64,000 nt of DNA from Strigops habroptila. Its lineage: Eukaryota > Chordata > Aves > Psittaciformes > Psittacidae. The translations under genes and the position numbers were made by a program. Under the pieces are notes generated by a model, which worked only from the letters and a program-made list of their open reading frames with translations, made no database searches and was not told where the DNA came from. Below, in pieces: positions 8,945 to 13,731 of this stretch. The stretch covers positions 1-64,000 of the forward strand of contig NW_022651106.1 in NCBI RefSeq assembly GCF_004027225.2. Reading direction: 5' to 3'. Position 1 is the first letter of the stretch, and every line of letters starts with the position of its first letter.

Positions 8945-9440
8945 GTGCCGCCATAAGCAGCACCATAACCACTACCATAACTCTTCGCGCAGTAGTAGGT
9001 GGCCGTGTCGTCGGTCGTGAGGCTGCTCATCTGCAGCGTGACCGTGCTCTGGGAGTCGTCCTTGGAGATGGTGAAGCGACCCTGCACCGATGGCGCGTAT
9101 CTGGTGGTACCACCACTGGTGTCAATAGGTGCTACCACCACCACTACTGCTAATGTAGGCGACGAACTCAAGCCCCTGCCCTGGTGCTTGTCGCGTCCAT
9201 CCCATGTTGTAGCTGCTGAAGGTGAAGCCCGAGGCCTTGCAGACGAGCGTCAGGGACCCACCAGGGCTCTGGAGGTCACCTCCGGTCTCCACCAGCGTCA
9301 CGGCCGCCCGGAGACCTATGGATGGAGAAGAAGACCCCATTGAGTCAATGGGTTCCTGGGCAGCGCCGTGGTCCTCACCCCAGCAGGATGGGGCCAGGTC
9401 CTACCTGGGGGGTGATGGTGGCACCGTGTCTATGGGAAAG
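8945..9440 (-). pseudogene. VH pseudogene with duplicated CDR2, minus strand
   Basis: Leader remnant 9405-9440, V exon from 9315. FR1 ([18 protein letters not shown]), CDR1 ([10 protein letters not shown]), FR2 ([14 protein letters not shown]) and a first CDR2 ([11 protein letters not shown]) are open. A second CDR2 copy ([16 protein letters not shown]) follows in another frame, 28 nt downstream of the first, with a stop between. FR3 then runs open to YYCAK with D-like tail [16 protein letters not shown] and functional leader are missing. Confidence 0.88.
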
Positions 9441-10371
9441 GGCCCACAGGAACCCAATGGGAGAGGTTTGGGGTGAAACCTGTGGAGATTTGGGGCCAAT
9501 GGTCAAGATTTGGGTCAGAAATGGTGGAATTTGGGGCAAAGGGTCAAGATTTGGGGTAAATTGTTGAGATTTGGGCATAAAGGGTCAGGATTTGGGCAAA
9601 TTGTTGAGATTTGGACATAAAGGCTAAGGATTTGAAGCAAATTTTTGAGATTTAGTGGAAATGGTCCAATTTTAGGTCAAAGATTTGATGTTTGGAGCAA
9701 AAGTGGTTGCGGGTTGTGGTAAAGGGTTGATATTCAGTGCAAATGGGTGAGTTTTGGGGCAAACCTTTTGATTTTGGAGTCCAAAGATCAAGATTTCAGG
9801 TAAATGGTTGAGATTTGGCCTCCAAGTGTCCACATTTAAGGCTAACCATTTAATTTTGGGGGCAAATTGTTGAGGTTTGGGGCAAAAATGGGTGATTTGT
9901 GGTGAATGGTTGAATTTCAGTGGATAAGGACGAGGTTTGGGGCAAAACCAGTTGAGAATTGAGCCCAAATGGTCAAGTTTCAGGGCAAAGAGTTGAAACT
10001 TGAGGCCAGTGGTTGAGGTTTGGGGGCAATGGTGAAGGTTTGGTGCCAATGGAGAACAGTTCTGAGGTAAAACCTGTTGAGTTTGGGGTCAACCTGAAGA
10101 TATTTGGTTCCAATGGCCAAGGTTTGAGGCAAAGGGTTGAAATTTGGGGCAAATAGTTGAGATTTGAAGCAAATAGTTGAGATTTGAGCCCAAAATGGTT
10201 GAGATTTGGGCCAAAGAGCCAAGCCCTGAGGTGAATTGTGGCCATTTGGGGCCAAGGGCCGAGGTTTGGGGCCAATGGGTGAGGTTTGGCTCAAGGCTCT
10301 GGGCTGGGTGAAGGTTTCTGGGGGGGATTTAGTGACACAGCACAAGGGGTTGGCTCATGGCGATGCCCTTG
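9441..10371. repeat. Spacer repeat
   Basis: Degenerate GATTTGGGGCAAATTGTTGA-like units; the block closely matches 8014-8938, 10865-11890 and 12398-13450. Confidence 0.75.
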
Positions 10372-10864
10372 GTGTCACCATAAGCACCATAATAACTACC
10401 ACCAGCACTCTTCGCGCAGTAGTAGGTGGCCGTGTCCTCGGTCGTGAGGCTGCTCATCTGCAGCGTGACCGTGCTCTGGGAGTTGTCCCTGGAGATGGTG
10501 AAGCGACCCTGCACCGATGCCGCGTACTCGGTGTTACCACCACTGGTGTCAGTAGGTGCTACCACCATCACTGCTAATGTAGGCGACATACTCGAGCCCC
10601 TGCCCTGGTGCTTGTCGCGCCCATCCCATGCCGTAGCTGCTGAGGGTGAAGCCCGAGGCCTTGCAGACGAGCGTCAGGGACCCACCAGGGCTCTGGAGGT
10701 CACCTCCGGTCTCCACCAGCGTCACGGCCGCCCGGAGACCTATGGATGGAGAAGAAGACCCCATTGAGTCAATGGGTTCCTGGGCAGCGCCGTGGTCCTC
10801 ACCCCAGCAGGATGGGGCCAGGTCCTACCTGGGGGGTGATGGTGGCACCGTGTCTATGGGAAAG
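10372..10864 (-). pseudogene. VH pseudogene with duplicated CDR2, minus strand
   Basis: Leader remnant 10829-10864, V exon from 10739. FR1 and CDR1 ([10 protein letters not shown]) are intact, FR2 is [14 protein letters not shown], and the first CDR2 ([10 protein letters not shown]) is followed after 25 nt by a second, frame-shifted CDR2 ([16 protein letters not shown]). FR3 is open to YYCAK; the D-like tail is [13 protein letters not shown]. No RSS heptamer. Confidence 0.88.
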
Positions 10865-11890
10865 GGCCCACAGGAACCCAATGGGAGAGGTTTGGGGTGA
10901 AACCTGTGGAGATTTGGGGCCAATGGTCAAGATTTGGGTCAGAAACGGTGGAATTTGGGCCAAAGGGGCAAGATTTGGGGCAAATTGCAGAGATTTGGGC
11001 ATAAAGGGTCAGGATTTGTAGTAAATTGTTGAGATTTGGGCATAAAGTGTCAGGATTTGGGGCAAATTGTTGAGATTTGAGCATAAAGGGTCAGGATTTG
11101 GGGCAAATTGTTGAGATTTGGGCATAAAGGGTCAAGTTTTGTGGCAAATTGTTGAGATTTAGTGGAAATGGTCCAATTTTAGGTCAAAGATTTGACGTAT
11201 GGAGCAGAAGTGGTTGAGGTTTGTGGTAAAGGGTTGATATTTAGTGCAAATGGGTAAGTTTTGGGGCAAAACAGTTGATTTTGGGGTCCAAAGATCAAGA
11301 TTTGAGGTAAATGGTTGAGATTTGGCCTCCAAGGGTCCACATTTATGGCAAACCATTGAGATTTGGTGCAAATTGTTGAGGTTTCAGGCAAAAATGGGTG
11401 AGTTTGGGGTGAGTGGTTGAAATTCAGTGGAGAAGCACGAGGTTTGGAGCAAAACCAGTTGAGAATTGATCTGAAATGATCAAGTTTTAGGGCAAACAAT
11501 TGAAACTTGTGGCCAATGGTTGAGGTTTGAGGCCTGTGGTTCAGATTTGAGGCCAATGGTGAAGGGTTAGCGCAAATGGATAAGAGTTCTGAGGTAAAAC
11601 CTGTTGAGTTTGGGGTCAACCTGAAGATATTTGGTGCCAATGGCCGAGGTTTGAGGCAAAGGGTTGAGATTTGGGGCAAATAGTTGGAATTCGGAGCCAA
11701 TAGTTGCGATATGGGTCCAAAATGGTTGAGATTCGGGCCAAAGAGCCAAGCCCTGAGGTGAATTGTGGCCATTTGGGGCCAAGGGCCGAGGTTTGGGGCC
11801 AATGGGTGAGGTTTGGCTCAAGGCTCTGGGCTGGGTGAAGGTTTCTGGGGGGGATTTAGTGACACAGCACAAGGGGTTGTCTCATGGCGA
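10865..11890. repeat. Spacer repeat
   Basis: Degenerate tandem units as above, with about four near-identical GGGCATAAAGGGTCAGGATT units at 10990-11140. Confidence 0.75.
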
Positions 11891-11897
11891 TGGCCTT

Positions 11898-12397
11898 GGT
11901 GCCACCATAACCAGCACTACCAGCACTACCACCATAAGCATCCTTCGCACAGTAGTAGGTGGCCGTGTCCTCGGTCGTGAGGCTGCTCATCTGCAGCGTG
12001 ACCGTGCTCTGGGAGTTGTCCCTGGAGATGGTGAAGCGACCCTCCACCGATGCCGCGTATCTGGTGGTACCACCACTGGTGTCATTAGGTGCCACCACCA
12101 TCACTGTCAATTTGTGCGACGTACTCGAGCCCCTGCCCTGGTGCTTGTCGCATCCATCCCATGTAGTAATCGCTGAGGGTGAAGCCCGAGGCCTTGCAGA
12201 CGAGCGTCAGGGACCCACCAGGGCTCTGGAGGTCACCTCCAGTCTCCACCAGCGTCACGGCCGCCCAGAGACCTATGGATGGAGAAGAAGACCCCATTGA
12301 GTCAATGGGTTCCTGGGCAGCGCCGTGGTCCTCACCCCAGCAGGATGGGGCCAGGTCCTACCTGGGGGGTGATGGTGGCACCGTGTCTATGGGAAAG
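11898..12397 (-). pseudogene. VH pseudogene with duplicated CDR2, minus strand
   Basis: Leader remnant 12362-12397, V exon from 12272. CDR1 is [10 protein letters not shown] and FR2 [14 protein letters not shown]. The first CDR2 (QIDSDGGGT) is followed by a stop and a second, frame-shifted CDR2 ([16 protein letters not shown]). FR3 is open to YYCAK; the tail [15 protein letters not shown] is D-like. No RSS. CDR1 and the first CDR2 differ from the other copies, so it adds donor diversity. Confidence 0.88.
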
Positions 12398-13450
12398 GGC
12401 CCCCAGGAACCCAATGGGAGAGGTTTGGGGTGAAACCTGTGGAGATTTGTGGCCAATGGTCAAGATTTGGTTTAGAAATGGTGAAATTAGGGGCAAAGGG
12501 TCAAGATTTGGTGCAAATTGTTGAGATTTGGGCATAAAGGGTCAAGATTTGGGGTGAATTGTTGAGACTTGGGCATAAAGGGCCAAGATTTGGGGCATAT
12601 TGTTGAGATTTGGGCATAAATGGTCAGGATTTGGGGCAAATTGTTGAGATTTAGTGGAAATGGTCCAATTTTAGGTCAAAGATTTGATGTTTGGGGCAAA
12701 AGTGGTTGAGGGTTGTGGTAAATGGTTGATATTCAGTGCAAATGGGTGAGTTTTGGGGCAAACCTTTTGATTTTTGGGTCTAACAATCAAGATTTGAGGT
12801 AAATGGTTGAGATTTGGCCTCCAAGTGTCTACATTTAAGGGAAACCATTTAGATTTGAGGCAAACCATTGAAGTTTGGGGCAAAAATGGGTGAGTTTGTT
12901 GTGAGTGGTTGAAATTCAGTGGAGAAGGATGAGGTTTGGAGCAAAACCAGTTGAGAATTGAGCCCAAATGGTCAAGATTTCAGGCAAAGAGTTGAAACTT
13001 GGGGTCAATGGTTGAGGTTTGAGGCCAGTGGTTGAGGTTTGAGGGCAATGGTGAATGTTTGGTGCCAATGGAGAACAGTTCTGAGGTAAAACCTGTTGAG
13101 TTTGGGGTCAAACTGAGGGTATTTGGTGCCAATGGACAAGAGTTCTGAGGTAAAACCTATTGAGTTTGGAGTCAACCTGAAGATATTTGGTGCCAATGGC
13201 CAAAGTTTGAGGTAAATAGTTGAGATTTGGAGCAAATAGTTGGAATTCGGAGCAAATAGTTGCAATTTGGGTCCAAAATGGTTGAGATTCAGGCCAAAGA
13301 GCCAAGCCCTGAGGTGAATTGTGGCCATTTGGGGCCAAGGGCCGAGGTTTGGGGCCAATGGGTGAGGTTTGGCTCAAGGCTCTGGGCTGGGTGAAGGTTT
13401 CTGGGGGGGATTTAGTGACACAGCACAAAGGGTTGGCTCATGGCGATGGC
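12398..13450. repeat. Spacer repeat
   Basis: Degenerate tandem units; a local duplication near 13050-13180 repeats the TTCTGAGGTAAAACCT unit. Confidence 0.75.
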
Positions 13451-13451
13451 C

Positions 13452-13731
13452 TTGGTGCCACCATAAGCACCATAATAACCACTACCAGCAACCTTCGCGC
13501 AGTAGTAGGTGGCCGTGTCCTCGGTCGTGAGGCTGCTCATCTGCAGCGTGACCGTGCTCTGGGAGTTGTCCCTGGAGATGGTGAAGCGACCCTCTACCGA
13601 TGGCGTGTAGAAGGTGCTACCACCACTGGTGTCAATAGGTGCCACCACCATCATCGTCAATGCTTGCGACCCATTCGAGCCCCTGCCCTGGTGCTTGTCG
13701 CATCCATGCCATGGCGTAGTCACTGAAGGTG
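13452..13731 (-). pseudogene. VH pseudogene with duplicated CDR2, FR1-truncated, minus strand
   Basis: The sequence begins within FR1/CDR1 at [21 protein letters not shown] codons. A first CDR2 ([10 protein letters not shown]) is followed after 25 nt by a frame-shifted second one ([16 protein letters not shown]). FR3 is open to YYCAK with tail [13 protein letters not shown]. Leader and most of FR1 are lost at 13731, where plus-strand repeat begins. It is the pseudogene nearest the intact VH. Confidence 0.85.

Follow-up and report, generated by a model that had tools for sequence, protein, structure and literature searches.

In the chicken immunoglobulin heavy-chain (IgH) locus, as described in the excerpts of the published account used here, one functional-looking heavy-chain variable (VH) gene stands beside a cluster of pseudogenes that form a donor array, and diversity is concentrated in the complementarity-determining regions (CDRs) (PMC10917233). 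The same single-VH conversion strategy is indicated for non-galliform birds, given that zebra finch and Gentoo penguin show a single leader in all expressed VDJ (variable, diversity and joining) sequences, as expected for one VH plus gene conversion; this comparison, taken from part of the report, concerns expressed sequences and not germline pseudogenes (PMC5389807). In synthetic DT40 arrays, designed donors likewise give CDRs to one functional V gene; their frameworks are identical to the functional gene and their CDRs are substituted, and the part of that report used here mentions no frame-breaking insert (PMC3837002). Here we analysed a 64-kb stretch of Strigops habroptila DNA (the window) from the very start of contig C78 (NW_022651106.1; 348,875 bases of a 1.149-Gb genome), with positions 64001-264000 of the same contig added. 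The window carries a comparable array around a functional-looking VH, termed VH1, and in several of its VH pseudogenes CDR2 is present twice, in a way that breaks the reading frame.

The locus of the window (copy A) is repeated in inverted orientation at 113-204 kb of the contig (copy B), in blocks of 93-99% identity, counted only if longer than 1.5 kb and above 93%. A BLAST search with VH1 as query, covering the contig up to 264 kb, revealed 27 VH pieces, nine in copy A (VH1 and eight others) and 18 in copy B (a second VH1 copy at 179466 and 17 others). The chicken, according to the same excerpts, has 120 known heavy-chain pseudogenes (PMC10917233), compared with 8 and 17 VH pseudogene pieces per locus copy here. 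The CDR2 duplication is present in 13 of the 27 pieces, that is in 4 of the 8 pseudogene pieces of copy A and 9 of the 17 of copy B (contig 182-198 kb). Two of the doubled genes of copy A have counterparts in copy B: 13487 and 182802(+) are 99.7% identical on both flanks, and 11937 and 184236(+) are likely counterparts (one flank 99.7%, the other 87%), so that 11 doubled loci are left if each pair is counted once. These doubled genes look like normal donors whose CDR2 is split by one nearly frozen, frame-breaking block. They probably go back to one ancestral tandem duplication of CDR2, which was spread by block duplication and conversion, left two separately usable halves, and has been tolerated as an accident rather than kept as an adaptation.

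The junction between the two units has the same form throughout. In the window copies, unit 1 runs from ATT to ACCT and is directly adjoined by unit 2, which begins with ATT, ACT or AAT followed by GACACCAGTGGTGGT. Among all 13 copies, unit 1 ends in GGT RGC ACC T (ACT T in 197721), and after the ATT, AAT or ACT codon unit 2 continues with GAC ACC AGT GGT in 12; only 191761 differs, with an inner part reading INVNAG. The register is identical in 13 of 13, and a string of 13 nucleotides (nt) past the junction codon is identical in 12 of them. The two units of one gene agree at 15-19 of 25 positions, as would be expected for a tandem duplication. The offset between units is 25 nt in ten copies, 28 nt in two (8984 and 197721) and 22 nt in 191761, the last counted by eye, given that an identity-only script favoured 25; each of these lengths is 1 modulo 3. 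We considered 28 and 25 nt as products of separate duplications and rejected this, as a single codon added within unit 1 accounts for the difference. Chance is excluded, because 12 of the 13 copies share the 13-nt string and the surrounding blocks align, at about 85-97% over about 1-5 kb among the 120 matches listed. An assembly artefact was likewise ruled out as the origin of the duplication, as the 13 copies lie in varied surroundings. Read in frame 0 past ACC, the copies show TAT, TAC or TAA, followed by TGA or, in 191761, by TAA, and 13 of 13 stop there; TAA precedes TGA in five copies, in the window only in 11937. A conversion tract copying the junction would thus terminate the chain, beyond shifting its frame.

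An earlier note on this DNA had described four neighbouring copies with doubled CDR2, displaced by 28 nt in the first and by 25 nt in the other three, and rechecking of the unit coordinates agreed with it on both counts; all four are on the minus strand. Its restriction of the duplication to these four was too narrow in view of the 13 copies now found. It had further taken framework regions (FRs) 1 to 3 to be open on either side of the duplication, which is correct for pseudogenes 1-3 with each part in its own frame and fails for pseudogene 4, which has no FR1; and it had spoken of a frame shifted by one, which the offsets bear out, although the stop at the junction goes further. The single ancestral event spread through block duplication, which it had offered as one possibility, gains support from the common register and the block alignments.

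Diversity within CDR2 is distributed unevenly around the junction. Codon numbers below are Kabat-like and given by eye, and the column windows were picked after viewing the alignment of the copies. Comparison of the substitution patterns in the two units, as the earlier note had proposed, revealed that unit 1 varies mainly in its 5' part (codons 50-53) and unit 2 mainly in its 3' part (codons 55-58), these being the outer halves. In unit 1, codons 50, 52 and 53 show six, five and three kinds of residue among the 13 genes, there is little or no variation at codons 54, 55 and 57, and five genes have a stop at codon 58. In unit 2, 12 of the 13 genes agree at each of codons 50, 52, 52a, 53 and 54, and two, four and five kinds of residue occur at codons 55, 56 and 58. 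Unit 2 has no informative variable column in codons 50, 52, 52a and 53, against nine in the unit 1 equivalents. Codon 51 is Ile in all 13 copies of unit 1 and Asn or Thr in six of the 13 copies of unit 2, indicating that coding sequence is not maintained at the 5' edge of unit 2. Nucleotide diversity is 0.263 in the outer 31 columns and 0.079 in the inner 30, with 15 and 2 informative columns, respectively (Fisher p = 0.0004, permutation p = 0.0014); with corresponding genes counted once, the informative columns number 12 and 2 (p = 0.005). The outer halves reach the diversity seen in the same regions of 13 single-CDR2 pieces (0.330 versus 0.337 and 0.208 versus 0.213), a set that covers 13 of the 14 singles (V200403 left out), includes both VH1 copies, and has an FR3 diversity inflated by the unrelated tails of V6166 and V190477. 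Furthermore, with each outer half read in its own frame, replacement (pN) exceeds silent (pS) change in both: pN/pS is 0.365/0.033 for unit 1 and 0.234/0.090 for unit 2.

In one pair of genes the block has moved in the germline. Best flank matches (95.6 and 96.6%) pair the single-CDR2 gene 6951 of copy A with the doubled gene 189562 of copy B. Along 16 windows of 100 alignment columns, identity is 0.97-1.00 in 12 and lower in three others (0.86, 0.93 and 0.89; two just 5' of the V exon and one at the far end). In the CDR2 window it falls to 0.64; there 6951 matches VH1, the absence of the block included, and the CDR2 module of 189562 is identical to that of 196289. This near-identity except at CDR2 shows that a short germline conversion tract inserted or removed the block. 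The pair is thus a clean footprint of conversion between germline VH copies, by which the block was either gained or lost.

Random tracts from the 13 doubled genes were copied into VH1 in silico, in one alignment register and with no homology requirement; draws were skipped if a tract end fell in an alignment gap or CDR2 stayed unchanged. The single-CDR2 donors were 8 of the 14 singles; left out were both VH1 copies, V199203, which has a stop of its own, and V6166, V190477 and V200403, which are truncated at the 3' end. With doubled donors, the frame stayed open after CDR2-changing tracts of 20, 100 and 200 nt in 305 of 549, 193 of 1252 and 180 of 1707 draws, respectively; the values for single donors were 447 of 461, 1029 of 1034 and 891 of 893. 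The doubled genes can thus act as half-donors for short tracts and are costly for long ones. The statement of the earlier note that a tract over both units yields no product, and a one-sided tract can stay in frame, is borne out by these counts. According to the excerpts used here, conversion hotspots of the chicken lie where its pseudogenes are variable (PMC10917233), and long events spanning CDR1 to CDR2 numbered only two in one designed DT40 light-chain array (PMC3837002). Together, these findings make half-donor use, with tracts that stay on one side of mid-CDR2, plausible.

These observations enable us to propose a putative history of the doubled genes. The ancestor would have been a VH pseudogene whose CDR2 was of the IDTSGG(S/G)TY type, and a single out-of-register exchange or slippage inside this repetitive CDR2 would have doubled it. 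The doubled gene may then have been amplified in blocks of about 1.5 kb in both orientations. Afterwards, the outer halves would have been re-diversified through germline conversion with other VH copies, and the inner block would have changed little because single-CDR2 partners have no sequence homologous to it. In the donation to VH1, tracts ending within CDR2 would deliver FR1, CDR1 and the 5' half of CDR2, tracts starting within it would deliver the 3' half together with FR3 and CDR3, and tracts across the block would be lost. Donors probably serve in patches, which may be why the duplication is tolerated.

An open frame was seen for VH1 and its copy, and a V-set domain was assigned for VH1 of the window. 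Among 16 5'-complete pieces, only these two have an octamer and a VH1-type leader. The other 14, to which 11 of the 13 doubled genes belong, have no octamer in the 400 nt upstream and unrelated sequence at the leader position, with a fortuitous ATG no more than 60 nt from the splice site in 4 of the 14. Alignment by eye showed that the CDR3-like tails 3' of the FR3 Cys are rich in Gly, Tyr and Ser in all 13 doubled genes, and length changes in unit 1 and in this tail are multiples of 3. The locus thus has a single functional-looking VH per copy, a promoterless and leaderless pseudogene cluster, D-like (diversity-like) tails, and replacement diversity concentrated in the CDRs. Avian VH donors usually have a frame unbroken through FR1-FR3, a trait that does not define them; here all 13 doubled genes run into a stop at the CDR2 junction. 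The missing octamer and leader and the broken frame, together with the extra FR2 stop of 184236, would also suit decaying relics with no donor role. On the other hand, the 11 doubled genes with an FR1 differ in only 1 of its 75 columns and FR3 diversity is low (0.039), compared with 0.17 and 0.24 in the more distant spacers (rough alignments), and variation in the CDR halves falls on replacement positions. The leader intron next to the exon shows the same homogeneity as the framework (0.028), and array-wide conversion alone could keep frameworks alike; weighing these points, we regard a relic status as unlikely.

Selection could instead have kept the 25-nt block as a device, in which its broken frame forces tracts to end within CDR2 so that the halves are shuffled independently. 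Each donor would then amount to two independent half-donors, and the block would remove B cells in which one tract had replaced the whole CDR2. Most CDR2 diversity does lie outside the block, the offset remains 1 modulo 3 in 13 of 13 despite length changes, and the block is present in half of the VH pseudogene pieces. However, common ancestry plus conversion gives the same pattern, the loss of tracts is costly, and 6951/189562 show that one short tract suffices to bring the block in or take it out. Four-gamete and r2 tests, moreover, revealed fine-grained shuffling throughout, to which the block is no exception. Thus, such a device appears quite improbable. As for the two alternative CDR2 cassettes that the earlier note had seen in each gene, if read as complete units kept by selection with VH1 able to use either, the frame of each unit is open next to the framework on its side, replacement exceeds silent change in both outer halves and short one-sided tracts can give in-frame products, yet the near-fixed inner codons of both units, the loss of Ile51 from unit 2, the unit 1 stops at codon 58 and a cost with no gain at 100 nt make it very improbable, and what stands is that either side would be usable alone, the units being better taken as two parts of a single CDR2 that flank a nearly frozen block.

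Several points weigh against an ancestral duplication whose inner block stays frozen between separately usable halves. Linkage tests across the block versus within the halves gave no clear extra break that would mark a conversion barrier: incompatible site pairs amount to 0.54 across the block versus 0.52 and 0.41 within the halves, and at 30-60 columns to 0.72 across versus 0.59 within. The inner part also varies at codon 56 of unit 1, with Ser in seven genes and Gly in six. If all variable columns are counted, the outer excess is non-significant (17 of 31 versus 10 of 30, p = 0.12), owing largely to 191761, the one gene that differs in the inner part of unit 2; without this gene the values are 17 of 31 and 4 of 30 (p = 0.001). 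All p-values are nominal, given that columns were treated as independent, the copies are related, and the inner and outer borders were set post hoc. Codon-position counts of segregating sites alone are unstriking, and the low diversity of the framework does not demonstrate selection, because the leader intron is equally low. Finally, the presumed somatic donor role of the doubled genes is drawn from other birds only.

Table 1 Features of the VH cluster and its surroundings in the window
Feature	Position	Strand	Remark
VH pseudogene 1 (gene 8984)	8945..9340	-	doubled CDR2, 28-nt offset
Unit 1 of CDR2, pseudogene 1	9127..9154	-	28 nt
Unit 2 of CDR2, pseudogene 1	9102..9126	-	25 nt
VH pseudogene 2	10372..10764	-	doubled CDR2, 25-nt offset
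Unit 1, pseudogene 2	10554..10578	-	
Unit 2, pseudogene 2	10529..10553	-	Ile51 codon is ACT
VH pseudogene 3 (gene 11937)	11898..12297	-	doubled CDR2
Unit 1, pseudogene 3	12087..12111	-	
Unit 2, pseudogene 3	12062..12086	-	Ile51 codon is AAT
VH pseudogene 4 (gene 13487)	13452..13731	-	doubled CDR2, 5'-truncated, starts near CDR1, no FR1
Unit 1, pseudogene 4	13637..13661	-	
Unit 2, pseudogene 4	13612..13636	-	
Single-CDR2 VH (gene 6951)	6950..7276	-	VH1-type CDR2; copy B counterpart is doubled 189562(+)
VH1, functional-looking VH	16576-16911 (16612..16905)	+	V-set domain, open frame, leader
VH1 leader exon	16457..16511	+	ATGCAAAT octamer 5' of exon at 16385-16392
JH-like (joining) segment	21586..21624	+	DAWGSGTIVTVSS; named by eye

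The recombination signal sequence of VH1 is weakly recognisable by eye: 3' of the coding end (window 16890-16945) there is a heptamer-like CACGGTG string, and the nonamer at 23 nt is unconvincing. The doubled gene at C78:184236-184596 and the single gene at C78:199203-199423 share an in-frame TGA in FR2 (M*QAPG), which suggests that this stop was moved by conversion.

The window represents a compact avian-type IgH locus, with a VH cluster at 4-17 kb and C1-set domains at 36.2 kb (+), 45.8-46.3 kb (-) and 62.6-63.3 kb (+). The constant regions of birds follow the order Cmu, inverted Calpha, Cupsilon, and by order and orientation we read the three C1-set regions as fitting this arrangement. The inverted copy (C78:113078-204405) opens immediately behind a stretch of 100 N (112978-113077). 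Most probably, both haplotypes were kept in the assembly, with their contigs joined head to head at this scaffold gap; a genuine inverted duplication of the IgH locus is less likely. The VH content of the copies differs twofold, with 9 pieces at window 4400-17000 and 18 at C78:179400-200500, the functional-looking VH included, possibly reflecting a haplotype copy-number difference in the donor array. A whole-genome protein search gave at least 46 VH matches, of which 39 lie on C78 (67-100% identity), six on C20 (39-53%) and one on C11 (25%); it listed none at 264-349 kb of C78, beyond the range of the BLAST census. The C20 group (C20:2321707-2330387), five members of which are near full length, may at a guess comprise T-cell receptor genes of the VH-delta type. 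Searching viral contigs for VH relatives, we found 14 stretches matching the pattern and confirmed none, and in a solved-structure search with VH1 the best 60 of 11083 matching sequences were all antibody or nanobody-type chains, which is uninformative here.

In the titles and abstract beginnings of the open-licence literature, no description of a doubled CDR2 in VH donor pseudogenes was found among the matches listed; the CDR2-duplication match listed there concerns human SARS-CoV-2 antibodies. The comparisons of doubled copies made here are confined to one bird genome. Present in about half of the VH pseudogene pieces and nearly fixed, the block is a natural marker for the ends of conversion tracts. 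Traced in expressed VH, it would tell whether donors are used as whole genes or in short patches, and whether a broken donor frame matters.

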